From positions 1 through 20,160 of the IMG/VR virus record IMGVR_UViG_3300021136_000072: DNA of 20,160 bases. The stretch is one strand, 5' to 3'. The stretch comes from a virus. This document shows positions 5,085 through 20,160 of the stretch, piece after piece. Positions within the stretch are counted from its first letter, which is position 1, and every line of letters begins with the position of its first letter. A model generated the notes under the pieces. It made no database searches and was not told the DNA's origin. It worked only from the letters and a program-made list of their open reading frames with translations. Position numbers and translations under genes: made by a program.

Positions 5085-6049
5085 TGACTACTACTGGAGC
5101 ATCCGTATTTGATTTAAACATGAACGAACTCGTAGAAGAGGCGTTCGAGCGGTGCGGTGCTGAATTAAGAACGGGTTATGATTTAAGAACGGCTACTCGG
5201 TCATTAAATATTTTGACTGTTGAGTGGGCCAATCGAGGTATTAACCTTTGGACGGTAGAAGAAGGTCAGATCCCCATGAATACGGGTCAGATTACCTATC
5301 CATTGCCAATTGACACAATTGATTTATTAAGCCAAGTGATTCGTACTGGGACGCTGCAAAACCAGATCGACATTAACATTAGCCGTATTTCTGAAGATAC
5401 TTACTCCACCATTCCTAATAAATTGGCCGTTGGCAGACCTATTCAAGTATGGATCAATCGTCAATCTGGTCAAACCAATCCTACGGCTTATACTCTTGTT
5501 GGCAACGGCTCTAATGGTAATGGCGGCATCTCTGCTACAGATACCACGATTCAGCTTACTCCAGCTGATTTAACGGGTCTTGCAGCCACTGGTTATATCA
5601 AAATAGACTCTGAGATTATCTACTATCCAAATGTCTCTACGACCTCTGCACAGCTGTTAAATTGCTATCGTGGACAGGCTGGCACAACGGCTGCAACACA
5701 TGCCACTTCTGCGCCAATTAGCACAACCAATTTGCCGTGTATCAACGTCTGGCCTACCCCCAATTCACCAGGTAGTCAATACACATTTGTCTACTGGCGT
5801 TTGCGTAGAATTCAAGATGCTGGTTCTGGCGTTACAACCAACGATATTCCATTCCGTTTTATTTCAGCTTTAGTGGCTGGATTAGCATACTATTTATCCC
5901 AGAAGGTTCCTGGCGTTGATCCAAATAGAATAGCCATGCTGAAAGCAGACTACATGGAACAATGGACGCTGGCATCCGAAGAGGATCGTGAAAAAGCGCC
6001 CGTACGCTTTGTGCCACGAGCTTCTTTTTATACGGGGGGTAGACGGTAA
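5084..6049 (+). CDS. Head-tail adaptor / P22 gp4-like tail accessory protein with inserted beta domain
   Basis: 321 residues. The N-terminal helical part (NELVEEAFERCGAELRTGYD, then LRTATRSLNILTVEWANRGINLWT) and the Y-PLPIDTIDLLSQVIRTGT block are typical of podovirus adaptor proteins that attach below the portal and extend the connector. IPNKLAVGRPIQVWINRQ ends the first half; INVWPTPN and FVYWRLRRIQDAG resume it. Between them, residues about 130-215 form an apparent insertion with a TTIQLTPADL strand, GYIKIDSEIIYY and a CYRGQAGTTAATHATSAPI motif seen as a mobile beta module in other phage proteins. The C-terminal ISALVAGLAYYLSQKVPGVD helix packs the adaptor bundle. It connects DNA-filled heads to the tail; exact subfamily uncertain. 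Confidence 0.8.
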   Translation: MTTTGASVFDLNMNELVEEAFERCGAELRTGYDLRTATRSLNILTVEWANRGINLWTVEEGQIPMNTGQITYPLPIDTIDLLSQVIRTGTLQNQIDINISRISEDTYSTIPNKLAVGRPIQVWINRQSGQTNPTAYTLVGNGSNGNGGISATDTTIQLTPADLTGLAATGYIKIDSEIIYYPNVSTTSAQLLNCYRGQAGTTAATHATSAPISTTNLPCINVWPTPNSPGSQYTFVYWRLRRIQDAGSGVTTNDIPFRFISALVAGLAYYLSQKVPGVDPNRIAMLKADYMEQWTLASEEDREKAPVRFVPRASFYTGGRR

Positions 6050-6573
6050 TGCCTGATTTAAAGCTTACCCCTCAAGAAAAAAATATTGTTCAATATCATA
6101 GGGATAATATTGCATTTAACAATGTTGGCACTGGCCCACAAGGAGAGCCTGTGACTGTATATAGCACAGGCGTAACTATGGATAGCGGGCCCCACAAAGG
6201 TAAGTCTGCATTAGTTCCTGGTTATATCCAAGGCAAACAATATGAAGATCCAGATCTTATTCGAGAATATTGGCGTACAGATATAAACAAAGGTAAGTTC
6301 CCTATTTATAATACTCCTGAAGAAGGAGATAAACGGGCTAAAGAAATACACAAAATTATGGACGAAGAAGTTGGCGCTGCTGAAAAAGCTGGTAGAGCAT
6401 CAAAATCTGAACAATATAAAAAAGGCGGTGCGGTACAAGATAAATACCGCAAAGAAAAGTTAGTCAAAGGATATTCTGGTCAGCCCACTAGTCAGACTAG
6501 AGTATTTAATGGAACTATAGTACGTGGTCACGGCATCGAAACGAAGGGCAAGACTAAAGGCAGGATAGTTTAA
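6049..6573 (+). CDS. Conserved phage protein with KGKTKGRIV tail
   Basis: 174 residues in two parts. The N-terminal ~110 residues (LTPQEKNIVQYHRDNIAFNN, then a VTMDSGPHKGKSALVPGYIQGK strand pair and KGKFPIYNTPEEGDKRAKEI-HKIMDEE helix) resemble a small domain common in podovirus virion-region genes of the type Y-x-x-P-T-x-x-G-K...FPSYxSExEAExR...MH. Its function is not established. The C-terminal ~60 residues are basic and probably disordered: YKKGGAVQDKYRKEK and finally VRGHGIETKGKTKGRIV, the clearest copy of the tail shared by several small genes here. It starts in a TAATG overlap with the adaptor gene and ends in another with the next gene. Confidence 0.7.
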   Translation: MPDLKLTPQEKNIVQYHRDNIAFNNVGTGPQGEPVTVYSTGVTMDSGPHKGKSALVPGYIQGKQYEDPDLIREYWRTDINKGKFPIYNTPEEGDKRAKEIHKIMDEEVGAAEKAGRASKSEQYKKGGAVQDKYRKEKLVKGYSGQPTSQTRVFNGTIVRGHGIETKGKTKGRIV

Positions 6574-7007
6574 TGCCTAGTAAATATGCATCAGGCAAAT
6601 ATGCTATTGCCCAATGTGATAGATGTGGCTTTAGATACAAGTTGATGGATTTAAAGAAAGAAATTATCAAGACAAAACTTTATAATATTAAAGTTTGTCC
6701 TGAATGTTGGGATCCAGATCAGCCACAGTTGAGCTTGGGATTATATCCTGTGAATGATCCTCAGGCGGTGCGTGAGCCTCGCCCAGACGTAAGTTATCAA
6801 GTTGGCGGTACTTATGGGTTAATGACCAATCCATATGACCCAAATGTAAACGCTCTTGATAGTGCAGGCTACTCATCTGATGGCAGTAGGCAGATACAAT
6901 GGGGTTGGAACCCTGTAGGTGGTGCAAGTTATTTTGACAGTTATTTAACTCCAAACTCCTTGCTTCCTGTTATAACAATCGGTACAGTATCAATTACAAC
7001 GACTTAG
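6573..7007 (+). CDS. Zinc-ribbon phage structural-region protein
   Basis: 144 residues. CDRC at residues 15-18 and CPEC at 42-45 form a four-cysteine zinc ribbon with a 23-residue linker (GFRYKLMDLKKEI in between). The ribbon is followed by WDPDQPQLSLGLYPVNDPQA and VREPRPD, a proline-rich block that I recognise as a recurrent pair with this ribbon in podovirus-like genomes. The C-terminal third is low-complexity and beta-prone, ending GTVSITTT. Zinc would stabilise the N-terminal fold; the partner could be DNA or another virion protein. The gene sits between adaptor-region genes, so a connector or head-completion role is likely but not shown. Confidence 0.75.
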   Translation: MPSKYASGKYAIAQCDRCGFRYKLMDLKKEIIKTKLYNIKVCPECWDPDQPQLSLGLYPVNDPQAVREPRPDVSYQVGGTYGLMTNPYDPNVNALDSAGYSSDGSRQIQWGWNPVGGASYFDSYLTPNSLLPVITIGTVSITTT

Positions 7008-7017
7008 GAGTATTAAA

Positions 7018-7242
7018 ATGGATAAAGAAGATATCAAACAAGACAAAAAGCTCATTAAAAAAGCTTTTGGTATGCATGACAAACAAGAACATCATGGCGA
7101 ACATACTGATCTTTCTGGCCTGAAAAAAGGCGGTAAGATTAAAAAGATGGCTAAAGGTGGCGTGACAGGCAAAGAAATGAAAGCTGTCGGCCGCAATATG
7201 GCCCGTGCTATGAATCAAAAATCAAGCTCAAGAGGTCGTTAA
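7018..7242 (+). CDS. Small Lys/Gly-rich protein with GGK repeats
   Basis: 74 residues. The N-terminus MDKEDIKQDKKLIKKAFGMH followed by DKQEHHGEHTDLSGL is a short helical domain I have seen on small proteins of environmental phages. It is followed by KKGGKIKKMAKGG, the same basic GGK-IKKMA-GG module found in the His-rich protein at 3781-4437, then VGRNMARAMNQKSSSRGR. TAGGAG lies 7 bases before the ATG. No catalytic residues are visible; the protein is likely partly disordered and nucleic-acid or phospholipid binding is possible because of its charge. Confidence 0.7.
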   Translation: MDKEDIKQDKKLIKKAFGMHDKQEHHGEHTDLSGLKKGGKIKKMAKGGVTGKEMKAVGRNMARAMNQKSSSRGR

Positions 7243-7243
7243 T

Positions 7244-7558
7244 ATGGCAACCGCAAAGAATGTAAAGCCTACAACCAAGAATAGCCCAAAGGTTACAATT
7301 GGTAAGAATAAATTTGCTGAACCAGCAGATACTTATGCCAATCCGCACACCAATAAAGAAAAGCATATTACTGGCCAAGAAGTGATGGATCGTGGTGAGT
7401 TTGTCCATACCAAATCAGCTAAAGATGCTAAGTTAACAGATCCTGTTAAAAGCGGTGTTTGCTACGCTGAAACCAAAGAAACTAAAACTTCTGGCATAGA
7501 AATGCGTGGCGCAGGCGCAGCAACTAAAGGACGCATGTCCAGAGGCCCAATGGCATGA
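7244..7558 (+). CDS. Small conserved phage protein with basic C-terminal tail
   Basis: 104 residues, charged and low in hydrophobic residues, begun 1 base after the preceding stop with AGAGG upstream. A central segment (HITGQEVMDRGEFVHTKSAK) is followed by DAKLTDPVKSGVCYAETKET and the C-terminal KTSGIEMRGAGAATKG then RMSRGPMA. The last 20 residues are a diverged form of the RGxGAATKGRxxRG tail seen on other small genes. Function unknown. Its stop overlaps the start of the next gene (ATGATGA), linking it to the second adaptor protein. Confidence 0.7.
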   Translation: MATAKNVKPTTKNSPKVTIGKNKFAEPADTYANPHTNKEKHITGQEVMDRGEFVHTKSAKDAKLTDPVKSGVCYAETKETKTSGIEMRGAGAATKGRMSRGPMA

Positions 7559-8484
7559 TGACATACCAGCAGCTGTGGCAAGCGATTCAAGATTACGCTG
7601 AAACCACAGAGTCACTCTTTGTAGCAAATATTCCCCTGTTTGTTCAGGAGGCGGAAGACCGCATCTATAATTCGGTGCAGATTCCTTCCTTACGGAAAAA
7701 TGTTACAGGTAACTTAACTGCTGGTAATCCTTATTTATCGTTGCCAATGGACTATCTATCAACCTATTCATTGGCTATTATTGATAGTAGTGGCAACTAC
7801 AATTACATTTTGAATAAAGATGTAAACTTTTTGCGTCAGTCATTCCCCAATCCAAATACCACTGGAATGCCTTATTGTTACGCCCTTTTTGGGTCACAGT
7901 TGGCTAATATCAATGAATTGTCATTGATTATTGGGCCTACGCCAGATTCCAATTACACGGCAGAATTGCATTATTATTACTATCCGACAACCATTGTTCA
8001 GGGTCAAATTAACATTTGGAATATTGTTAATCCAGGATCTAGCTATGCTGCTGGAACCTACGAAAATATACCGTTGACAGGCGGAACGGGTTCTGGCGCT
8101 ATTGCCACGATTGTTGTTGGAAATACCAGCACGGTGACATCCGTTACCATTACTAATGGCGGTAATTACTATGTTGTTGGCGATCAATTAAGCGCTGCTA
8201 CCACCAATTTGGGCGGTGGTACTGGTACAGGGTTTACCCTTACGGTTACTAGCATATCAAATGCTACAGGCACCAGCTGGCTTGGTGATAACTATGACCC
8301 AGTGCTTTTTTATGGCGCTATGCGTGAAGCGATGCTTTTCCAGCGTCAAGAGGCCGATGTTATTAAATCTTATGAAGAGAAGTACCAAGAGGCTCTTGCA
8401 CAACTCAAACGCCTTGGAGATGGTCTGGAGCGTAATGATGCTTACAGACGTGGTCAAACTAGCCTACCTTATAACAGACTATAA
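7555..8484 (+). CDS. Second adaptor-like connector protein with inserted beta domain
   Basis: 309 residues; two adjacent ATGs (7555 and 7558) are both possible starts. The N-terminus MMTYQQLWQAIQDYAETTES, then IPLFVQEAEDRIYNSVQIPS and a LSLPMDYLSTYSLAIIDS strand, and the C-terminal WLGDNYDPVLFYGAMREAM, Glu/Ala-rich helix and RLGDGLERNDAYRRGQT are typical of phage adaptor (tail-connector) proteins of podoviruses. Residues about 150-238 look like an insertion between PTTIV and TSWLGDN: a glycine-rich beta module with GGTGSGAIATIVV, VTSVTITNGGNYYVVGDQLS and GTGTGFTLTVTSIS. The same module occurs in fibre proteins of other phages. It would project from the connector. Position and family suggest it links the first adaptor to the tail hub. 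Confidence 0.8.
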   Translation: MMTYQQLWQAIQDYAETTESLFVANIPLFVQEAEDRIYNSVQIPSLRKNVTGNLTAGNPYLSLPMDYLSTYSLAIIDSSGNYNYILNKDVNFLRQSFPNPNTTGMPYCYALFGSQLANINELSLIIGPTPDSNYTAELHYYYYPTTIVQGQINIWNIVNPGSSYAAGTYENIPLTGGTGSGAIATIVVGNTSTVTSVTITNGGNYYVVGDQLSAATTNLGGGTGTGFTLTVTSISNATGTSWLGDNYDPVLFYGAMREAMLFQRQEADVIKSYEEKYQEALAQLKRLGDGLERNDAYRRGQTSLPYNRL

Positions 8485-8486
8485 CT

Positions 8487-8945
8487 ATGCCAATCTTCCA
8501 AGCCGCTTGTAATGTGTTCCAGCAAAATTTGCTCAATGGTAATGAGAACTTTACCAACGGCACTTATTACATTGCTTTATACAATGCCAATGCCAATTTG
8601 AACGCCACCACCACGGCCTATACCACAGTAAATGAGGTTACAGGAACGGGTTATACGGCTGGCGGAATACCATTAGTAATATCCCAGACCCCTACGATTA
8701 ATAACCAATACAACACGACTTACGTGTCATTTCAAAACGCAGTTTGGAGTCCTGCTGCGTTTACTTGTAGGGGTGCATTGGTATATAATTACACTACAAA
8801 AGCAGCTTGTTTTGTGTTGAATTTTGGGTCTGATAAGACTTGTAACAACAGCTTTACGGTGACTTTCCCAGCAGCGACTTACTCGTCTGCTATTTTAACG
8901 ATTAGTAGTTATACGGATGCAAACGTAGTCAGTTCAGGCGATTAA
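8487..8945 (+). CDS. Fibre/baseplate-type structural protein (conserved phage family)
   Basis: 152 residues. It begins with a short helix (FQAACNVFQQNLLNGNENFT) and then GTYYIALYNANANLNATTTA with TTVNEVTGTGYTAGGIPLV, followed by VSFQNAVWSPAAFTCRGALV and YNYTTKAACFVLNFGSDKTC. This order (IALY, then EVxGTGYTAGG, then VxW-xxFTxRGAxxYN, then LxFGxD) is a recurrent phage virion-protein family with no established biochemical role. It is nearly all beta. It starts 2 bases after the adaptor gene, opening the series of fibre-type genes. Confidence 0.7.
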   Translation: MPIFQAACNVFQQNLLNGNENFTNGTYYIALYNANANLNATTTAYTTVNEVTGTGYTAGGIPLVISQTPTINNQYNTTYVSFQNAVWSPAAFTCRGALVYNYTTKAACFVLNFGSDKTCNNSFTVTFPAATYSSAILTISSYTDANVVSSGD

Positions 8946-10701: not shown

Positions 10702-10712
10702 TTTATTATGAG
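10695..10712 (+). promoter_or_regulatory. Inverted repeat spanning a stop and a start codon
   Basis: CTCATAA (10695-10701) and TTATGAG (10706-10712) are perfect inverted copies separated by TTTA. The left arm carries the stop of the upstream gene and the right arm the ATG of the first RCC1 gene, which has no properly spaced Shine-Dalgarno. In mRNA the start codon could be held in a weak 7-bp hairpin that a ribosome ending the upstream gene would open, giving translational coupling. The stem is AT-rich, so its stability is uncertain. Confidence 0.4.
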
Positions 10713-11844
10713 TGAAAGATATGTAGGTGCTTGGCTTACTGATGGCGGATTTAATCCGCTGACTGCGCCTACGCCTAGTTACACATATAATTTATACGCT
10801 TGGGGGGATAATTCTCAAGGTCAATCAGGTCTTGGAAATACAACAACATATTCATCACCTAAACAAGTTGGCTTTTTAGCCAATTGGTTAAGTGTTTCTA
10901 GTGGCATGTATTTTACAATGGCAATTAAAACAGACGGCACACTTTGGACTTGTGGATACAATACTGTTGGCCAACTAGGACTTGGAAACACAACTAATTA
11001 CTCTTCACCCAAACAAGTAGGCGCATTAACAAATTGGCTAAACGGTTCTTGTGGAACCAATTATTGTGCGGCAATAAAAACTGATAACACCCTTTGGACA
11101 TGGGGTGGCAATACCACTTTTGGGCAACTAGGTTTAGGAAATAGAACAAGCTATTCCTCACCAAAACAAGTTGGATTACTGACTAATTGGTTGATTGTTT
11201 CATGCGGTCAGTATCATACAATGTCTATTAAAACTAACGGAACATTATGGGCTTGGGGAAGAAGTGACTCTGGTCAGTTAGGGTTAAATAACGGAACATA
11301 TTATTCTTCTCCTAAACAAGTTGGATCTCTTACTAACTGGGCAAATATTGTTTGCGGAACTGGTTGTTCTATCGCTATAAAAACAGATGGGACATTATGG
11401 GGTTGGGGAATAAATACAAGTGGTCAATTGGGTATAGGCACTTATACCAATATTTCTAGTCCACAACAAATTGGCGCTTTAGCAACTTGGTCAAAAATAG
11501 CCACAGCAAGTGTAAGCACTTTTGCAATTAAAACCAATGGCTCTTTGTGGGGTTGGGGGTCAAGCAACTATGGACAATTAGGCATCAACAACACAACAAA
11601 TTATTCATCTCCAAAACAAATTGGATCTTTAACGACTTGGAACACTGTCACAGGGTTAAGATATTCTACTTTAGCAATAAAAACTGACGGAACCCTATGG
11701 TCTTGGGGCCAAAATAGTACCGGTCAATTAGGAATAGGAAATACAACAGCATATTCATCTCCAAAACAAGTGGGACTTTTAACTACATGGGCTGTGCTAC
11801 CTAAAGGTACACAAACAACTTCAGCTTTTGGATTAGCTTACTAA
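10708..11844 (+). CDS. RCC1-type seven-bladed beta-propeller protein A
   Basis: 378 residues: a ~28-residue leader (SERYVGAWLTDGGFNPLTAP) then seven repeats of about 50 residues. Each repeat has the form LW-x-WG-x-N-x-x-GQLG-x-x-N-x-T-x-YSSPKQVG-x-L-x-x-W, then a variable ~10-residue segment and A-IKTDGT. This is the RCC1 repeat, and seven copies make one full propeller. The last strand (TSAFGLAY) would pair with the first to close the ring. Eukaryotic RCC1 binds Ran and chromatin, but nothing here implies that; propellers often mediate protein or glycan binding. With its position among fibre genes, a virion tip or receptor-binding protein is the best inference. No signal peptide and no clear Shine-Dalgarno are present. 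Confidence 0.85.
   Translation: MSERYVGAWLTDGGFNPLTAPTPSYTYNLYAWGDNSQGQSGLGNTTTYSSPKQVGFLANWLSVSSGMYFTMAIKTDGTLWTCGYNTVGQLGLGNTTNYSSPKQVGALTNWLNGSCGTNYCAAIKTDNTLWTWGGNTTFGQLGLGNRTSYSSPKQVGLLTNWLIVSCGQYHTMSIKTNGTLWAWGRSDSGQLGLNNGTYYSSPKQVGSLTNWANIVCGTGCSIAIKTDGTLWGWGINTSGQLGIGTYTNISSPQQIGALATWSKIATASVSTFAIKTNGSLWGWGSSNYGQLGINNTTNYSSPKQIGSLTTWNTVTGLRYSTLAIKTDGTLWSWGQNSTGQLGIGNTTAYSSPKQVGLLTTWAVLPKGTQTTSAFGLAY
10792..11844 (+). repeat. Seven RCC1 repeats in protein A
   Basis: Seven tandem units of roughly 150 bases. The invariant core (WG-x-x-x-x-GQLG and SSPKQ) is also repetitive at DNA level (CCAAAACAAGTTGG-like segments), while the segment between blades varies in sequence and slightly in length. 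Confidence 0.85.
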
Positions 11845-11845
11845 T

Positions 11846-13009
11846 ATGCCAATAACCTACCCCTACATCCAATACGGTGGCATCTGGACAACAAGCCAAG
11901 CCACTGATGCCGTTGCCTCTGGCACTTGGGCTGTTCCACCTACGCCTAAGTTATATGCTTGGGGCCAAAATAATTATGGACAATTAGGATTAGGAAGCAC
12001 AACAGCTTACTCTTCTCCTAAACAAGTTGGCACATTAACCACGTGGCTAACCGTATCTAGCGGTCTTTATTTTGCTGCAGCTATTAAATCCGATGGCACT
12101 CTTTGGATGTGGGGAAGAAATAATCAAGGGCAGTTAGGATTAGGAAATACAACATCCTACTCATCTCCAAAACAGGTTGGAGCGTTAACGAATTGGTCAA
12201 AAATATCAACTGAATTTAGTAGTGCAGCCACACCATTTACTGTAGCAATTAAAACTGATGGAACACTTTGGTCCTGGGGGTACAATGCTCAAGGCCAACT
12301 TGGCCTTGGAAATCAGACTTATTATTCATCGCCTAAACAAATAGGCGTGTTAACAAACTGGTTAACTTTATCTAATCAATATAATCACGTAATCTCTGTT
12401 AAAACCGATGGTACTTTATGGGGTTGGGGTGGTAATGCCCAAGGACAACTTGGGCTTAATAATCGGACCAATTATTCATCTCCTAAACAAATTGGAGCCT
12501 TAAATAATTGGTCTGTCGCTACAGCAGCAACAAATGCTACTTTAGCTATTCAAACCAACGGAACTTTATGGGCTTGGGGTTTTAGTTCGTTTGGGCAATT
12601 AGGAAGAGGTGGAAATGGAAAATATTCTTCTCCAGTACAAGTGGGTTCCCTTACTAATTGGCTAAACATAACTAGCAGTAGATATAGTATGCTGGCAACA
12701 AAAACCGATGGTACTCTATGGTCTTGGGGATTTAACAGTTTTGGACAATTAGGTTTGGGTAATACAACAAACTATTCATCTCCAAAGCAAGTTGGGTCTT
12801 TAACCAATTGGTCAACAATAAGTGGCGGAAGATATGTATTTGCTAGTATTAAACCAGACGGCACTCTTTGGATGTGGGGAAATAATACTCAAGGTCAATT
12901 AGGCTTTGGAAACACAACATATTATTCATCGCCAAAACAAGTTGGATCTTTAACTTCTTGGTTAAATATTTCAGCAAATTATGGCACTTTAGGCATTGCA
13001 AAAACATAA
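11846..13009 (+). CDS. RCC1-type seven-bladed beta-propeller protein B
   Basis: 387 residues, a paralogue of the preceding protein. The leader differs (MPITYPYIQYGGIWTTSQAT, then GTWAVPPTPKLYAWG) and is followed by seven RCC1 repeats, again one complete ring. Blade 5 is the most diverged (FGQLGRGGNGKYSSPVQVG), while the other six keep YSSPKQ-(V/I)-G. The protein closes with a TLGIAKT strand. No transmembrane segment or secretion signal is visible. It starts 1 base after protein A without a convincing ribosome binding site, so coupled translation is likely. A 61-base spacer with a promoter-like site follows. It is a candidate receptor-binding or fibre-tip protein, inferred from location. Confidence 0.85.
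   Translation: MPITYPYIQYGGIWTTSQATDAVASGTWAVPPTPKLYAWGQNNYGQLGLGSTTAYSSPKQVGTLTTWLTVSSGLYFAAAIKSDGTLWMWGRNNQGQLGLGNTTSYSSPKQVGALTNWSKISTEFSSAATPFTVAIKTDGTLWSWGYNAQGQLGLGNQTYYSSPKQIGVLTNWLTLSNQYNHVISVKTDGTLWGWGGNAQGQLGLNNRTNYSSPKQIGALNNWSVATAATNATLAIQTNGTLWAWGFSSFGQLGRGGNGKYSSPVQVGSLTNWLNITSSRYSMLATKTDGTLWSWGFNSFGQLGLGNTTNYSSPKQVGSLTNWSTISGGRYVFASIKPDGTLWMWGNNTQGQLGFGNTTYYSSPKQVGSLTSWLNISANYGTLGIAKT
11951..13009 (+). repeat. Seven RCC1 repeats in protein B
   Basis: Seven tandem ~150-base units. A 26-base stretch at 12143-12168 is identical to 15662-15687 in protein C, showing recent shared ancestry or exchange between the separated paralogues. Confidence 0.85.
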
Positions 13010-13070: not shown

Positions 13071-14843
13071 ATGAAAAAAACATTACATTTTCTGTCTGGA
13101 ATTCCACGTTCAGGCTCTACAGTATTAGCTGCTATTCTTAACCAAAACCCAGAAACCCACGTCAGCACAACTTCTGGCTTGGTTCATGCGCTAGATGGTC
13201 TTGCCAATACTTGGCATTCTGCTGGGTTACTTAATGAAAACGACCCAGACCGCAAGAAGTTAGCGCAGACTATGCGTGGCATGATTGATGCGTTCTATGA
13301 GGACACTGATAAGCCCGTAGTAATCGACAAAGGTCGTGGTTGGCCTATTCCCATCATTATGGGCGCTATGACTCAGGTATTAGGTCACGCACCAAAGATC
13401 ATCGCTACAGTACGCCCTGTACCAGACTGTATGGCTTCTTTTGTACGAGTAGCAAAGCCCGAAGACCTTGATGAGTTCATGTACTCAGGACAGTTGGCTG
13501 ACCACTTAAAGGCAGCTTATATCTCCCTACAGCAAGGCTATGAAGCCATGCCAGAGAACTTCCTGTTTGTAGAGTACGACAACCTACTCGCAGACCCTAA
13601 AAAAGAATTAGACCGCATCCATGAGTTCCTTGGATTAGCGCCATTTGAGTATGACTTGTCTAACATTGACGGCACACCAGTAAAAGAAGATGACGAGAAC
13701 CTACATGGTTACGCTGGTATGCACGACATCAAGCCAGAGCTAAAGAAACAGCACTCAGACCGCTCGCAAGATCTATTAAAGCATCACTACAATCAGTTCT
13801 GCCAGCCAGAGTTCTGGAATGACAACAAGCGCACTATGCCTGAGTTAGATGACTTAGACTTGCAGTTAGCCGCTGGTAAAATCGGTGACTTTGTTGAGGG
13901 ATGGAGACTATCTGAGAAGCTACATGCCGAGCGCCCAACAGACCATCGTGCAGCCTATAACCGTTCATGGTACTTACTCAAGCAAGGAAAGGTGCGGGAA
14001 GGCTATAAAGAGATGGATCGAGGACGTTTCTGTGGAATCATTGGCGAGCGTCATCCAGACACCCCAATGCCAGAATGGGACGGGCGTTCTAAAGGCACAA
14101 TCTTGCTCTATTGCGATCATGGATTAGGCGATCAGATCCATCAAGTACGCTATGCTAAAGACTTAGTTGCCCGTGGTAATAAAGTGATTGTTTGCTGTTC
14201 TGGTCAACTGGCGCAGTTGTTTTCCCAAGTTGAAGGTGTGTCTGCTGTGATTCAGCATGGTGCTGAGTATGGTATTTACCATGACTTTTGGGCGTTTGCT
14301 ATGGTAGCTCCAAACTACCTTGGCTATGAGATGAGTGACCTTAAAGGCGCACCATACATTCCTAAGCCAAACGTCATCAAAGGCCGTAAAAAGCGCATTG
14401 GATTGCGTTGGCAGGGTAACTCTAAGTTCGAAGATGACCATAACAAGAAGTTCCCATACAACTTGTTATTTAATGCGGTACAAGGTGCTGACTATGAGTT
14501 CATCTCATTGCAGCGTGACGAAGGCGCAGATGCTTGCCCACCATGGGTAAAACGGGTATCATTAGATAGTTGGCAAGATACCCAGGCAGCAGTAGCGTCT
14601 TGTGACTTGGTGATCTCGTCATGCACCTCAGTAAGCCATTTGGCAGCCGCTATGGGCATTGAGACTTGGGTAGTTATTCCAGTGATGGGTTACTACCTGT
14701 ACGCTTTAGATGGCGATACATGCCCGTACTACGACAACATGACCTTGTTCCGCCAAGAAGTATTTGGTGAATGGCAAACTCCGTTTGATCGCATTAAGGC
14801 TAAACTAACAGTAGAAAAACCACAGATAAGAATGGTAAGTTAA
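13071..14843 (+). CDS. Sulfotransferase - helical (TPR-like) linker - GT-B glycosyltransferase fusion
   Basis: 590 residues in three parts. Residues 1-250: sulfotransferase; the 5'-phosphosulfate loop is SGIPRSGSTVL (9-19), a DKGRGWP motif is at 86-92, and the 3'-phosphate-binding R-x3-D-x3-S is VRPVPDCMASF (R115, D119, S123). It should take sulfate from PAPS. Residues ~260-320: helical, resembling a TPR pair (FVEGWRLSEKLHAERPTDHR, YNRSWYLLKQGKVREGYKEM). Residues ~340-580: GT-B domain of the GT9/TPR-associated type, with GLGDQIHQVRYAKDLVARG (351-369), IGLRWQGNSKF (443-453) and CDLVISSCTSVSHLAAAMG (511-529). Sugar donor and acceptor are unknown. The fusion suggests consecutive sugar addition and sulfation of one acceptor. 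Codon use is visibly more GC-rich than in the RCC1 genes on either side, suggesting separate origin. Confidence 0.85.
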   Translation: MKKTLHFLSGIPRSGSTVLAAILNQNPETHVSTTSGLVHALDGLANTWHSAGLLNENDPDRKKLAQTMRGMIDAFYEDTDKPVVIDKGRGWPIPIIMGAMTQVLGHAPKIIATVRPVPDCMASFVRVAKPEDLDEFMYSGQLADHLKAAYISLQQGYEAMPENFLFVEYDNLLADPKKELDRIHEFLGLAPFEYDLSNIDGTPVKEDDENLHGYAGMHDIKPELKKQHSDRSQDLLKHHYNQFCQPEFWNDNKRTMPELDDLDLQLAAGKIGDFVEGWRLSEKLHAERPTDHRAAYNRSWYLLKQGKVREGYKEMDRGRFCGIIGERHPDTPMPEWDGRSKGTILLYCDHGLGDQIHQVRYAKDLVARGNKVIVCCSGQLAQLFSQVEGVSAVIQHGAEYGIYHDFWAFAMVAPNYLGYEMSDLKGAPYIPKPNVIKGRKKRIGLRWQGNSKFEDDHNKKFPYNLLFNAVQGADYEFISLQRDEGADACPPWVKRVSLDSWQDTQAAVASCDLVISSCTSVSHLAAAMGIETWVVIPVMGYYLYALDGDTCPYYDNMTLFRQEVFGEWQTPFDRIKAKLTVEKPQIRMVS

Positions 14844-16075
14844 TGAGCTATCGGTATTCTAATTCCTTCATTGACCCAGGGTTAAACACCCTGACTAGTC
14901 CATCCCCCTCTGGATCATACACCCAATATGGAGGCATCTGGAAACTCTCCGCAGCAAGCGCAGCTCAGGGGGCTGGCACTTGGGCTACTCCGCCAGCTCC
15001 TCATCTATTAAGTTGGGGAAATAATAATAACGGCCAATTAGGCATTAGTAACATTACTAATTATTCTTCTCCTAAACAAGTAGGAGCATTAACAAATTGG
15101 TCTGTTATTTCTGCTCAAAATATTGCGTTTGTTTCCATTAAAACAGATGGTACTTTATGGTCTTGGGGCGCTAATAATTTGGGTCAATTAGGAAACGGTA
15201 ATACTACCAAATATTCATCACCAAAACAAGTGGGCGCTTTAACAAACTGGTTAAAAGTTTCTTGCGGTTCTTACCATGCGGTCGCCATCAAAACTGATGG
15301 CACAGCTTGGGTATGGGGATATAATTATTCTGGTCAATTAGGTATTTCAACAAACGCTGGTGTAGTTACCGCTGGAGCAACATCGCCTGTTCAACTAGGA
15401 GCGCTGACAAATTGGTCAAAATCTTTTTGTGGCGGTCAAAATTCTTTTGCGATTAAAACAGATGGCACTCTATGGGCTTGGGGAAATAACGGTCAAGGTC
15501 AACTAGGCTTGGGAAATAGAACAAATTATTCATCTCCAAAGCAAGTTGGTTCATTAACAAATTGGCTTAGCATTGCATCTGGTTATTATTTAACAGTTGG
15601 ATTACAAACAAATGGCACAATTTGGTCTTGGGGGCAAAATAACTACGGGCAATTAGGCCTTGGAAATACAACATCCTACTCATCTCCTAAGCAAGTTGGG
15701 TCTCTTACTACATGGCTAAACGCAACAGCAACTTATGGTTCTGTAACTGCTATCAAAACTGACGGCACTCTCTGGTCTTGGGGGTATAACACAGCTGGCC
15801 AATTAGGTATAGGAAACACAACCAATTATTCGTCCCCTAAGCAAATAGGATCCCTAACCAATTGGGCTGTAATATCTGGGGCTGGCGCTTCTCAAGCAGC
15901 AATATATGGCATTAAATCAGATGGCTCTTTATGGGCTTGGGGGTATAACGCTCAGGGGCAATTAGGACTAGGAAACATAACAAATTATTCTTCTCCAAAA
16001 CAAGTTGGTTCATTAACTACATGGTCAACAATTTCAATAAGCCAAAATTCAACATTTGGTATAGCAAAAACTTAA
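14843..16075 (+). CDS. RCC1-type seven-bladed beta-propeller protein C
   Basis: 410 residues, third paralogue. Its leader combines features of the other two: YRYSNSFIDPGLNTLTSPSP resembles the start of A, and YTQYGGIWKLSAASA...GTWATPPAPHLLSWG resembles the leader of B. Seven RCC1 repeats follow, giving one full propeller. Blade 3 carries an insertion (ISTNAGVVTAGATSPVQLG in place of the usual YSSPKQVG loop). It ends TFGIAKT, almost the same closing strand as B. The ATG overlaps the sulfotransferase stop (TAATG), so propeller and modifying enzyme are translationally coupled. Likely a fibre-tip or receptor-binding protein, by context. Confidence 0.85.
   Translation: MSYRYSNSFIDPGLNTLTSPSPSGSYTQYGGIWKLSAASAAQGAGTWATPPAPHLLSWGNNNNGQLGISNITNYSSPKQVGALTNWSVISAQNIAFVSIKTDGTLWSWGANNLGQLGNGNTTKYSSPKQVGALTNWLKVSCGSYHAVAIKTDGTAWVWGYNYSGQLGISTNAGVVTAGATSPVQLGALTNWSKSFCGGQNSFAIKTDGTLWAWGNNGQGQLGLGNRTNYSSPKQVGSLTNWLSIASGYYLTVGLQTNGTIWSWGQNNYGQLGLGNTTSYSSPKQVGSLTTWLNATATYGSVTAIKTDGTLWSWGYNTAGQLGIGNTTNYSSPKQIGSLTNWAVISGAGASQAAIYGIKSDGSLWAWGYNAQGQLGLGNITNYSSPKQVGSLTTWSTISISQNSTFGIAKT
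15005..16075 (+). repeat. Seven RCC1 repeats in protein C
   Basis: Seven tandem ~150-base units homologous to those of proteins A and B, with one longer unit (blade 3). Confidence 0.85.
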
Positions 16076-16091
16076 CAAAAGGAGTATTAAC

Positions 16092-16484
16092 ATGGCATTA
16101 TATGTACAAGTATTAAACAATGAAGTTAAACAGTGTATCGACACCTTACCTGCTGAAGGCGTAGGTAATGCTGGATGGAAGAACGCAATTGAAGTTCACC
16201 CAACCATCATTCCAAATCGTCAAGGTTACACAGCGCACACATTTGATCTAACTCAAGATCCAGTGCAAATCGTGTACGGCACATTTGACATTCCTGTAGC
16301 AGATCGTCAGGCTGGCATGATTGCTAACGCTAATTTTGAAGTAAGTCAATTACTCCAAGGTATGGCACGTGATCCATCTATATTTGATGCGACTAAAGTA
16401 TCTGCTGCTCAGTCTGCTGCTGCGACCAAAATTGCGGCTATTGAAGCTGCTACAACGCACGACCAATTGGATGCTATTCAGTGA
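16092..16484 (+). CDS. Small fibre-associated protein (possible fibre assembly protein)
   Basis: 130 residues, with AAAGGAG before the ATG. The N-terminal part (YVQVLNNEVKQCIDTLPAEG, GWKNAIEVHPTIIPNRQGYT, then FDLTQDPVQIVYGTFDIPVADRQ in pieces) is beta and resembles the short segment phages carry beside fibres, in which a residue string of the type P-V-x-I-x-Y/W-x-x-x-D-x-P-V-x-x-R occurs. The C-terminal ~50 residues are alanine-rich helix (VSAAQSAAATKIAAIEAATT). The layout is reminiscent of tail fibre assembly proteins, but I do not recognise the family firmly. The stop overlaps the GTG start of the methyltransferase. Confidence 0.6.
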   Translation: MALYVQVLNNEVKQCIDTLPAEGVGNAGWKNAIEVHPTIIPNRQGYTAHTFDLTQDPVQIVYGTFDIPVADRQAGMIANANFEVSQLLQGMARDPSIFDATKVSAAQSAAATKIAAIEAATTHDQLDAIQ

Positions 16485-17029
16485 AACTAAATTTGGGTTG
16501 TGGGTACAATAAGTTTGATGGCTACGTCAATGTAGACCATGATTCCCTGTGCCAGCCCGATATCGTTGCAGACCTAGAAGACCGATTGCCTTTTGAAGAT
16601 AACTCGGTGGATGAGATTATTATGTATCACGTCTTGGAGCATTTGGGTCAGGATGTAAAGACTTACTTTTCTATATGGAAAGAGCTTTACCGCATTCTCA
16701 AAAATGACGGAGAGTTGAAAATTACGGTTCCCCACTGGAACCATGAAAACTTCCATCACGATCCTACCCATGTCCGCAAAGTGACTCCTGTTGGCGTTAA
16801 TATGTTTAGTCAAAAGAAAAATCGCCAGACGATTGAAGAAAATGGTCAAGAAACAACACTAGGGTTACAACTAGGAATAGATATAGAGGTTGTTGGCGTA
16901 CACTATGATTTATCGCCTTGGTTCCAGCAAGCTATGCAGGGTCAACCCAGAGAAATAGTGGAAAGGGAAATGGGGCGATATAACAATAGTTGTCATCAAA
17001 TCCACATCTATGCAAAGGCGATTAAATGA
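16481..17029 (+). CDS. Class I SAM-dependent methyltransferase
   Basis: 182 residues from a GTG that overlaps the upstream stop (GTGA). Motif I is LNLGCG at residues 3-8; an acidic residue follows in YVNVDHDS; LPFEDNSVDEIIMYHVLEHL (about 36-55) is the Methyltransf_11-type motif with the usual post-motif HVLEH; ELYRILKNDGELKITVPHW is the beta-strand 5 region. A His-rich segment, NHENFHHDPTHVRKVTP, is typical of the envelope/glycan-modifying branch rather than DNA methyltransferases; no DPPY-type motif exists. The substrate is unknown; a sugar or lipid-linked acceptor is plausible given neighbouring sulfo- and glycosyltransferase domains. The next gene overlaps by ATGA. Confidence 0.8.
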   Translation: MKLNLGCGYNKFDGYVNVDHDSLCQPDIVADLEDRLPFEDNSVDEIIMYHVLEHLGQDVKTYFSIWKELYRILKNDGELKITVPHWNHENFHHDPTHVRKVTPVGVNMFSQKKNRQTIEENGQETTLGLQLGIDIEVVGVHYDLSPWFQQAMQGQPREIVEREMGRYNNSCHQIHIYAKAIK

Positions 17030-17862
17030 AAAAGATCCTCATCATGGGCTTGCCAGGTTCTGGTAAGACTTATTTAGCACAAGCATTAAAAGCTTATTTA
17101 GAAGAGCATGGGGAAATGTCCTATGCTAGAGCATTACAAGAGCATATTGTTGATCTTGGTTGCCAAGTGACTTGGTTCAATGCCGATGAAGTGCGTAAGA
17201 AATATAACGACTGGGATTTCTCAAAAGAAGGGCGTATTCGTCAATCTCTACGCATGGCTGAGTTTGCGCTGTCCGCTGGCGGTGATTATGTGATCTGTGA
17301 TTTTGTAGCGCCCTTGGTTGAGATGCGTAACAACTTCAAAGCAGACTGGACAATCTGGGTCGATACCATTGACGCTGGTCGGTTTGAAGATACCAACAAA
17401 GCGTTCGTGCCTCCAGAGGTGTACGACTTCAGAGTAACGGAACAAAACTGCGAGAAATGGGCTGAGTTCATTGGCAACCACATTATTGAGAATCGCAGAC
17501 GCCCTACCTTTGATTGGCAAAAAGAGACAGTACAAATGTTAGGCAGGTGGCAGCCGTGGCATGTGGGCCACAGAGCGCTATTTGAACGCTCTATAGCTAA
17601 GACTGGTCAAGTAGTTATTCAGATTCGTGACTGTCAAGGCTGGCAGGGTTCCAACCCATTTGCCATAGAGCAAGTTAAGGGCTATATCAAGCGTGATCTA
17701 GATCCGTTGTATCAAGGACAGTATGAAATCCAAGTAGTGCCAAATATTGTAAATATCACCTATGGACGTGATGTTGGCTATAAAATTGAGCAAGAAAGCT
17801 TTGATAAATCAGTAACTGATATTAGTGCTACAAAAATCCGCAAGGAGATGGGAATTGAGTGA
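17026..17862 (+). CDS. APS-kinase-like P-loop domain fused to an HxGH nucleotidyltransferase domain
   Basis: 278 residues. Residues 1-160: a P-loop kinase (GLPGSGKT at 8-15) with WFNADEVR at 50-57 in the place of the LDGD-x-(V/I)-R of CysC, NDWDFSKEGRIRQSLRMAE at 61-79, VICDFVAPL at 89-97, IWVDT at 110-114 and FEDTNKAFVPPE at 120-131, all characteristic of adenylylsulfate kinases; these phosphorylate APS to PAPS, the sulfate donor. Residues 165-278: a nucleotidyltransferase with GRWQPWHVGH (HVGH at 179-182) and ISATKIR at 266-272, as in NMN adenylyl- or cytidylyltransferases. A segment of ~15 extra residues precedes the DEVR motif. Whether the second domain makes APS, NAD or a nucleotide sugar cannot be told from motifs. 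It could supply PAPS to the sulfotransferase encoded 2.2 kb upstream. Confidence 0.8.
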   Translation: MKKILIMGLPGSGKTYLAQALKAYLEEHGEMSYARALQEHIVDLGCQVTWFNADEVRKKYNDWDFSKEGRIRQSLRMAEFALSAGGDYVICDFVAPLVEMRNNFKADWTIWVDTIDAGRFEDTNKAFVPPEVYDFRVTEQNCEKWAEFIGNHIIENRRRPTFDWQKETVQMLGRWQPWHVGHRALFERSIAKTGQVVIQIRDCQGWQGSNPFAIEQVKGYIKRDLDPLYQGQYEIQVVPNIVNITYGRDVGYKIEQESFDKSVTDISATKIRKEMGIE

Positions 17863-18058
17863 TAGCCCCGTTAGAAGCTTAGCTAAAGCCATTTCTTGGA
17901 GGGTTACAGGAACGCTAGATACCTTTATAATTAGCTGGATTATAACTGGTCAAGCGCTATTGGCTTCTAGCATTGCTTTAACCGAGATTATGACAAAAAT
18001 ATGCCTGTTTTGGCTTCATGAACGGGTTTGGAATAAGATTAACTTCGGTAGACAATAA
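17855..18058 (+). CDS. DUF2061 small membrane protein
   Basis: 67 residues from a TTG start at 17855. AAGGAG at 17842-17847 lies 7 bases upstream, and the next residues, SDSPVRSLAKAISWRVTGTL, match the DUF2061 beginning, so this start is preferred over the in-frame upstream codon at 17825. Two hydrophobic segments at about 21-32 and 34-54 separate the conserved RSLAKAISWRVTGTLDTF and HERVWNKINFGR blocks, the standard layout of this two-helix family of unknown function. It overlaps the APS-kinase-like gene by 8 bases, which points to a functional link, perhaps membrane tethering or transport related to sulfate activation. The stop overlaps the next ATG (TAATG). Confidence 0.85.
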   Translation: MSDSPVRSLAKAISWRVTGTLDTFIISWIITGQALLASSIALTEIMTKICLFWLHERVWNKINFGRQ

Positions 18059-18896: not shown

Positions 18897-20160
18897 ATGG
18901 CAGAATCGTACTCAACATCACTAAGATTAACCCTGATTGGGGATGGTGACTTATCTGGCACATGGGGTGACGTAACCAACGCTAACATTGGAACCCTTTT
19001 GGAAGAGGCCATTTGTGGCGTTATTTCAGTACCAATGGGTGATACTAACTATACCCTGCAAAGTTTAAACGGAGTAAAAGACCAGGCTAGGGCTGCCGTC
19101 ATTGTAGCTACAGGCGCTAACACGGCCGTACGTCAAGTAATTGCCCCATTGGTTCCTAAACTGTATATTCTGAATAACTCTACTACTGGCGGTTATAACG
19201 TCACCATTGGTGGATCAACAGGCTCTGTAGTCACAGTTCCAGCTGGTCAATCGGCTCTTGTTTATTGCGATGGCACAAACTTTTATAACGGTATTACCGT
19301 GGCAGCATCAGCCGCAACTACCTTGGGCGGAGGAGCAGCCAATCAAATCCTATACCAAGCCAGTACAAGTAATACTCAATTTATCACGGCCCCTACCACA
19401 GCCAATTCTTTTTTATACTGGACAGGATCTTCTTTTTCATGGAGCACAATTAGCGCAACTTTGACAGTTGGCTTATCAGCCATTAGTGGTGGTACTTCTG
19501 GTTATGTTCTTTACAACAATGGTGGTGTTTTAGGAAATTCAGCCGTAACAGGATCTGGAACTGTTGTTCTAGACAATAGCCCATCATTTACAGGAACTCC
19601 TACATTTGCTTCTGCTCCTACCGTTGGCGGTTATTCTGTGTTGACAACCAATACTGGCGTATCTGCTGGTGGTAACAATACCTTTACTGGCACCAATTCA
19701 TTTAGCACGGCTCCAACAGTTGGCGGCTATAGCGTAGTAACAACCAATAATTTATCTGGGTATGCTCAATTAAGTGGCACAAATAACTTTACTGGAGCAA
19801 ATAACTATAGTTCTACAGCTAGCATAACCGCAACAGGAACCAACGCAGGTAACCAGCGTATTGGTGTAACTTACAGCACTTATAGTTCTGGACTTTCAGC
19901 TGTGTCATTGCAACTTGCTGGTAATGGTGTTGGAGTTTTATTTGATACAAGTACTTATAGTTTGGGTCTTTTAAATGGCTTTGGAGGTGGTAGTGGTACA
20001 TATTTATCAATAACTCCTATAAGTGGTGCTATTGGATTAAGTAATAATACTTTATATACATCCGCTGTTGATGCTATTAAAGGTGGTAGTTCTACTGCGT
20101 GGATTGCTACGTCAGACATTCGCCTTAAAAATAATATCCAAGACTATACAAAAGGTCTTG
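18897..20160 (+). CDS. Tail fibre with S74 intramolecular chaperone domain, 3' partial
   Basis: Open to the window end (421 complete codons). TAAGGA precedes the ATG. The N-terminus AESYSTSLRLTLIGDGDLSG and TWGDVTNANIGTLLEEAICG is a phage fibre anchoring domain. After a beta region (YILNNSTTGGYNVTIGGSTG, VPAGQSALVYCDGTNFYNG), the shaft contains two related units around FTGTPTFASAPTVGGYSVLT and FTGTNSFSTAPTVGGYSVVT. The last visible residues, ATSDIRLKNNIQDYTKGL, begin a peptidase S74 (endosialidase-type) chaperone: SD-x-RLK includes the catalytic Ser and Lys for autocleavage after trimerisation. The receptor-binding region would be just before this; the rest of the chaperone lies beyond the window. 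It is the most probable major tail fibre. Confidence 0.85.
   Translation, partial: MAESYSTSLRLTLIGDGDLSGTWGDVTNANIGTLLEEAICGVISVPMGDTNYTLQSLNGVKDQARAAVIVATGANTAVRQVIAPLVPKLYILNNSTTGGYNVTIGGSTGSVVTVPAGQSALVYCDGTNFYNGITVAASAATTLGGGAANQILYQASTSNTQFITAPTTANSFLYWTGSSFSWSTISATLTVGLSAISGGTSGYVLYNNGGVLGNSAVTGSGTVVLDNSPSFTGTPTFASAPTVGGYSVLTTNTGVSAGGNNTFTGTNSFSTAPTVGGYSVVTTNNLSGYAQLSGTNNFTGANNYSSTASITATGTNAGNQRIGVTYSTYSSGLSAVSLQLAGNGVGVLFDTSTYSLGLLNGFGGGSGTYLSITPISGAIGLSNNTLYTSAVDAIKGGSSTAWIATSDIRLKNNIQDYTKGL

Follow-up and report, generated by a model that had tools for sequence, protein, structure and literature searches.

The activated sulfate donor 3'-phosphoadenosine 5'-phosphosulfate (PAPS) is made in animals by the PAPS synthetases PAPSS1 and PAPSS2 (~620 aa), in which an adenosine 5'-phosphosulfate (APS) kinase is followed by a nucleotidyltransferase of the HxGH superfamily, which includes ATP sulfurylase. 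Bacterial CysDNC, and rhizobial NodPQ together with the Nod-factor sulfotransferase, are systems in which sulfate activation is encoded beside a sulfotransferase for a surface or secreted glycan. Viral cysC auxiliary metabolic genes have been reported from viromes as adenylylsulfate kinase and assigned to assimilatory sulfate reduction or energy metabolism (PMC9789665, PMC8066274, PMC12713726), and the function of phage sulfotransferases has been stated to be unclear (PMC10580990). Here we describe a 20,160-base virus record (IMG/VR IMGVR_UViG_3300021136_000072, positions 1 to 20,160; this whole stretch is called the window) that encodes a sulfotransferase and, some 2 kb downstream at 17026-17862, a kinase joined to a nucleotidyltransferase (NT), a pair to which we give the name KNT. 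With a probability of roughly two in three, these genes form a module that supplies PAPS and sulfates an acceptor by way of a non-canonical ATP sulfurylase resembling nicotinamide mononucleotide (NMN) adenylyltransferase (NMNAT) and pantetheine-phosphate adenylyltransferase (PPAT). The literature searched contained no description of the kinase-NT fusion or of its link to a sulfotransferase.

The sulfotransferase, methyltransferase, KNT and DUF2061 genes all lie on the plus strand within 13071-18058 and all score above the Pfam cut-offs, which bears out the four co-directional genes proposed in an earlier, sequence-only reading of the window. Their features are as follows.

13071-13856, plus strand: sulfotransferase domain, the N-terminal ~262 aa of a 590-aa protein (PF13469, 5.8e-16; PF00685, 1.3e-8; PHROG 27463, 4.8e-48)
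13857-14843, plus strand: C-terminal part of the same gene, tetratricopeptide-repeat or glycosyltransferase family 9 (GT9)-like, that is, heptosyltransferase-like (PF01075, weak, E 0.11)
16481-17029, plus strand: S-adenosylmethionine-dependent methyltransferase, an optional neighbour (PF08241, 6.3e-9)
17026-17490, plus strand: APS-kinase-like P-loop domain of KNT (PF01583, 3.7e-10)
17515-17862, plus strand: HxGH adenylyltransferase (NT) domain of KNT (NMN adenylyltransferase models, AlphaFold2 and Foldseek, invariant motifs)
17855-18058 (open reading frame 17825-18058), plus strand: DUF2061 small membrane protein (PF09834, 1.6e-21)

The last 4 bases of the methyltransferase gene are also the first 4 of KNT, and KNT overlaps DUF2061 by 8 bases, as reported before, provided that the TTG at 17855 is the DUF2061 start.

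The gene at 17026 had been taken for a kinase only, a reading rejected here: the gene is a kinase-NT fusion of 278 aa, and its C-terminal HxGH adenylyltransferase domain (aa ~164-278; motifs GRWQPWHVGH, NPF, YGRDVGY and ISATKIR) had been missed. A minimal PAPS synthetase would be expected to have this architecture. The kinase domain scores 40.5 bits against PF01583 (cut-off 21.1) and 32 bits against the NCBIfam equivalog TIGR00455, under its cut-off of 138.7. When a profile of the KNT-family kinase was compared with solved structures, all top chains were APS kinases (2yvu, 1.8e-11; Aquifex SAT/APSK, 3e-10; human PAPSS1, ~1e-9), and the first Foldseek matches of the AlphaFold2 model of KNT (mean predicted local confidence, pLDDT, 86; predicted template-modelling score, pTM, 0.64) were human PAPSS1 and other APS kinase structures. 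Motif positions were equated by our own alignment to the known APS-kinase motifs (DGDNxR, the adenine-stacking Phe and the FxxP loop); the Walker A sequence GLPGSGKT, D54, R57, F65, R70, FVAP and R101 vary little or not at all in the family. Profile and predicted fold thus place the KNT kinase domain in the APS-kinase family. A second, divergent APS-kinase-like domain is encoded directly upstream of KNT in loci L060 (7440-8408), L173, L179, L183, L184 and L215; it forms the C-terminus of a ~320-aa protein whose N-terminal domain is of a different kind.

The NT domain is matched by NMN adenylyltransferase models in all 21 representatives, with bit scores far under the curated NMNAT cut-offs (28.9 vs 127). 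PF01747 (ATP sulfurylase) matched one of the 21, marginally (E 0.036), and none of them matched either known ATP sulfurylase type (PF01747 or CysD) significantly; nor did the NT domain give a full-length NMN adenylyltransferase match that included the NMN-binding half. Against the PDB, the NT profile found NMNAT 2qjt (3.4e-10), with alignments spanning NT residues 7 to ~78, chiefly the ATP-binding half. The AlphaFold2 model of NT (pLDDT 87.5, pTM 0.80) was nearest to PPAT and NMNAT in Foldseek, with no PDB fold match below 1e-3. Motifs invariant in the NT family are GRxQPxHxGH, R(K)201, NP, GRxVGY and ISxTxxR, and the usual acceptor half of NMNAT is replaced by a short segment carrying the invariant GRxVGY, giving a length of 115 aa vs ~165-180 aa. 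This adenylyltransferase always partners the kinase domain, fused to it in phages and encoded by two overlapping genes in SAR11 and SAR86. NT would adenylylate a small acceptor. An APS-kinase-like domain 3'-phosphorylates a 5'-adenylyl compound, and APS is the simplest such compound that would explain the neighbours.

The sulfotransferase domain predicted at 13071 was confirmed as PF13469 (59.8 bits, cut-off 27), and its PAPS site is intact, with a 5'-phosphosulfate loop (GIPRSGST) and a 3'-phosphate motif (VRxxxxxxxS). Across 60 unique relatives encoded beside KNT, RSGST is at least 95% conserved and the Arg and Ser, eight residues apart, are 100% conserved. The nearest solved structures are protein-tyrosine sulfotransferases. 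What had been overlooked is the 330-aa C-terminal part of the 590-aa protein, which has a weak GT9 likeness, matches cyanophage S-SRM01 proteins annotated as tetratricopeptide repeat, and occurs in 61 loci examined, either fused to the sulfotransferase or beside it.

KNT is encoded by at least several hundred viral contigs. A sample of 145 distinct viral KNT loci was searched with the profile of the window's sulfotransferase (PF13469-type), and the controls were 80 loci picked out by a structural gene of the window phage. A PF13469-type sulfotransferase was found in 70 of the 145 KNT loci, always on the KNT strand (70/70), and in 56 of the 101 for which at least 5 kb of upstream sequence was available. 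Sulfotransferase density was 3.9 per 100 kb at KNT loci vs 0.42 in controls, a nine-fold difference; the control loci held a sulfotransferase in 3/80 and KNT in 1/80, and this single KNT locus also carried a sulfotransferase and DUF2061. Large contigs gave a PF13469 match above the cut-off in 11/29 cases with KNT and 0/9 comparators. A borderline PF13469 family occurs in 13 further KNT loci, a different PF13469 member lies flush with KNT in L012, and L200 has a Sulfotransfer_4 gene at its KNT locus; four or more distinct sulfotransferase subfamilies adjoin KNT in phages. The profiles used did not see a sulfotransferase in 35 of the 106 KNT loci with enough upstream sequence, and among the upstream neighbours of 30 KNT loci without one, none of the 25 commonest (of 105) is a sulfotransferase family. 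In 11 loci (e.g. L242), 8 of them without a recognised sulfotransferase, a separate HldE-C-type cytidylyltransferase (TGGFDPIHSGH) is encoded just upstream of KNT.

Isolated Casjensviridae phages carry KNT at 35-39% identity. Their whole genomes lack a PF13469 match, and they were considered and rejected as counterexamples: the gene two upstream of KNT in Bhz60, before a NADAR gene and annotated as hypothetical, scores above the Pfam cut-off as a Sulfotransfer_4, and three other Casjensviridae have near-identical or similar genes at the same position.

A genome scan found the KNT family in SAR11 and SAR86 chromosomes, as two overlapping genes, and fused in a few alphaproteobacteria. Among 101 SAR86 genomes, 56 have both KNT and a sulfotransferase, 2 have KNT only, 5 a sulfotransferase only and 38 neither (Fisher 7e-20). 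No CysD above the cut-off was found in these 101 genomes (Sat was not searched there), and no APS-kinase-like match better than 4.6e-6 besides KNT, one KNT fragment being counted as KNT. At least 17 SAR86 genomes encode the sulfotransferase immediately upstream of the kinase-NT pair, on the same strand and 144-339 bases away (domain to gene). At one locus read directly, the sulfotransferase (5714-6823), kinase (6858-7265) and NT (7261-7650) genes are followed by a 2-hydroxyacid dehydrogenase. In SAR86, sulfotransferase, kinase and NT form one operon.

Of 118 SAR11 genomes, 94 have a strong KNT, 80 a sulfotransferase above the cut-off, 6 Sat and 6 CysD. All 6 CysD genomes carry canonical CysNC and lack KNT (Fisher 4e-5, uncorrected for phylogeny), as would be seen where one system of sulfate activation has taken the place of the other. 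The SAR11 kinase and NT pair sits among one-carbon and organosulfur genes, not sulfation genes (e.g. L096, 8682-12177); its neighbours in L096 are a Rieske oxygenase and, named by a look at their sequences, a methylenetetrahydrofolate-reductase-like protein, a methyltransferase and a dimethylglycine-dehydrogenase-like protein. KNT is rare elsewhere, being present in 2 of 398 Pseudomonadota in a phylum-wide search, and no sulfotransferase was seen adjoining KNT in the second of these genomes (G568).

DUF2061 scores 76.9 bits against PF09834 (cut-off 23.1). It is present in 32/145 viral KNT loci, 30 of which place it ~110 bases or less from KNT. The plasmid proteins most similar to it (59% identity) come from five symbiosis plasmids of Mesorhizobium, and the one read has the order nodB-nodC-nodI-permease-sulfotransferase-DUF2061-cysD-cysN; because DUF2061 lies there between the sulfotransferase and cysD-cysN, the phage KNT occupies the place of CysDN in a sulfation operon. 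DUF2061 is also found in unrelated gene settings, and the literature searched yielded no paper joining DUF2061 with phage or SAR86 with a sulfotransferase. The window-type methyltransferase is present in fewer than 20% of KNT loci and is an optional neighbour. An obligate four-gene cassette was rejected, as methyltransferase and DUF2061 are optional. To speak of four co-occurring genes would overstate these counts and that of the KNT loci without a recognised sulfotransferase.

Starting from the domains, the PAPS motifs, the family relationships, the gene linkage and the genome-level co-occurrence, all of them observed directly, the module would work as follows. The NT domain would adenylylate sulfate (ATP + SO4 -> APS + pyrophosphate), and phosphorylation of APS at its 3'-OH by the kinase domain would yield PAPS and draw the unfavourable adenylylation forward. 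With PAPS as donor, the sulfotransferase domain encoded at 13071 would then sulfate an acceptor. This would most probably be a glycan or a fibre protein on which the fused glycosyltransferase-like part acts; RCC1-repeat fibres and glycans of the host surface are other candidates. DUF2061 would be a membrane accessory of the module. We infer sulfate as the NT acceptor and PAPS as the product, and likewise the identity of the final acceptor and any benefit to the phage. Co-occurrence and complementarity are what suggest that KNT would be a bifunctional PAPS synthetase, making PAPS from ATP and sulfate.

The sequence-only reading had paired PAPS supply with transfer, and this core is upheld by the co-directional linkage in phages, the SAR86 operon, the genome co-occurrence and the SAR11 complementarity. 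The pathway as then drawn was incomplete, because an APS kinase alone needs an ATP sulfurylase, which the fused NT most likely supplies. Decoration of virions or glycans and a block to superinfection, which that reading also raised, would be possible roles. We lean, somewhat less firmly than towards the module itself, to the view that NT represents a third type of ATP sulfurylase, whose ancestry lies with NMN/pantetheine-phosphate-type adenylyltransferases and not with Sat or CysDN. On this view NT and the kinase together would be the smallest known PAPS synthetase. It would serve SAR11 and SAR86, which mostly lack any other means of activating sulfate, as their main such system, and likewise many phages, which would use it to sulfate their own parts or the host.

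Several observations weigh against PAPS supply and sulfation. In the kinase domain, the DGD motif of APS kinases reads NAD, and a DTNKxFxPPxxYDF segment peculiar to the family stands where they have the C-terminal KGLYKKA/FTGID lid; the likeness of the NT domain is to NMN and pantetheine-phosphate adenylyltransferases and not to ATP sulfurylase. When KNT sequences are clustered at 90% identity, 15 of 51 clusters have a PF13469-type sulfotransferase nearby, or 23 of 51 with the borderline family included, and the linkage in phages partly tracks the RCC1-fibre lineage, a partial confounding. The whole DLP_6 genome has no PF13469 match (not all sulfotransferase families were searched), and the gene directly abutting KNT in Casjensviridae is NADAR, not the sulfotransferase. 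The SAR86 and SAR11 genome statistics are uncorrected for phylogeny or incompleteness; inside SAR11 (118 genomes) sulfotransferase presence is uncorrelated with KNT, and 10 SAR11 genomes with a sulfotransferase lack both KNT and CysD, a gap that incomplete genomes may or may not account for.

The alternative that survives best, though unlikely, is a role for KNT in NAD salvage: a nucleoside kinase would here be joined to an NMN adenylyltransferase (the activities of NadR in reverse order) and would raise host NAD during infection, and the sulfotransferase would be an unrelated neighbour. The sequence of NT is closest to NMN adenylyltransferases, and NADAR abuts the Casjensviridae homologue; in L084, NADAR (7559-8002) overlaps the start of KNT (7995-8735) by 8 bases, between sulfotransferase and KNT, and L329, L330 and L331 have the same order. 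However, the kinase profile matches APS kinases rather than nicotinamide riboside kinases, the likeness of the shortened NT to NMNAT ends after the ATP-binding half, and NAD salvage would leave unexplained both the operon and co-occurrence with sulfotransferases in SAR86 and the complementarity with CysD/CysNC in SAR11.

Quite unlikely is a chance association, in which a variable tail-fibre locus carries these genes as separate cargo, brought close by a cargo hot spot and by lineage without forming a pathway. Sulfotransferases do occur in phages without KNT and track RCC1 fibres (a sulfotransferase is present in 47 of 52 RCC1-bearing KNT loci), and many KNT phages have none seen nearby. Cargo of this kind would not account for the shared strand of every nearby sulfotransferase and their density over controls, for the several subfamilies and gene orders beside KNT, or for the SAR86 chromosomes, which have the same partnership as an operon well away from tail genes. 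Very improbable, finally, is a donor other than PAPS: KNT would produce the 3'-phosphoadenylyl (or cytidylyl) derivative of some other small oxyanion or group, the 'sulfotransferase' would transfer this group, and the methyltransferase, whose gene overlaps KNT in the window, would complete the modification. A parallel is the synthesis of O-methyl phosphoramidate in Campylobacter, in which Cj1415 bears the annotation of an APS kinase and takes cytidine diphosphoramidate as its substrate. Against this, the SAR11 complementarity and the DUF2061 link to cysD-cysN indicate sulfate, the PAPS-binding residues of the sulfotransferases are invariant, and the methyltransferase is not a constant partner of KNT.

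Three RCC1-repeat (beta-propeller) proteins, unusual for a phage tail region, flank the sulfotransferase and have near-identical NTTxYSSPKQVGxLTNW repeats; they may be candidate acceptors of sulfate.

10708-11844, plus strand: RCC1-repeat protein (PF00415, 7 repeats)
11846-13009, plus strand: RCC1-repeat protein (PF00415, 7 repeats)
14843-16075, plus strand: third RCC1-repeat protein, directly 3' of the sulfotransferase gene (PF00415, 4.7e-74)

Elsewhere in the window, a GIY-YIG homing endonuclease gene (820-1404) lies immediately 3' of the major head protein gene. A tail-fibre-like gene at 18897-20159 is truncated by the window end and has no Pfam match; in our own reading, the final residues of its product, SDIRLKNNI, resemble the start of a peptidase S74 intramolecular chaperone.

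If PAPS supply and sulfation are indeed the role of the module, an unrecognised route to PAPS would operate in many phages and in SAR11 and SAR86, bacteria that abound in marine and fresh waters, some viral genes filed as assimilatory 'cysC' would serve sulfation, and phage sulfotransferases would gain a donor source and a testable function. The viral cysC genes reported so far have been assigned to sulfate assimilation or energy metabolism; for the window kinase, fusion to NT and linkage with a sulfotransferase suggest sulfation. The sulfotransferases of S-SKS1 and OM43-phage genomes belong to the same PF13469 family as the window gene, but were reported without a donor-making gene. NT shares GRxQPxHxGH, ISxTxxR and the ATP-binding half with the NMN adenylyltransferases NadR and NadM, whereas its acceptor half is shortened and carries the invariant YGRxVGY instead, and its partner kinase is APS-kinase-like. 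With CysDNC and NodPQ the phage module shares the placing of activation genes beside a sulfotransferase and also DUF2061, which is in the operon on Mesorhizobium plasmids and adjoins KNT in phage; it differs in having one small, phage-borne fusion in place of CysD (PP-loop) and CysN (GTPase). The animal PAPS synthetases have the same domain order as KNT and catalyse the reaction proposed for it, and PAPSS1 heads the Foldseek matches of the KNT model, whereas KNT is less than half their length and its second domain is a trimmed NMNAT/PPAT-like one with no significant match to the ATP-sulfurylase family. By its proposed function KNT would be a PAPS synthetase, and NT, which by sequence falls in neither known ATP-sulfurylase family, would make it an enzyme of a new ATP-sulfurylase type.

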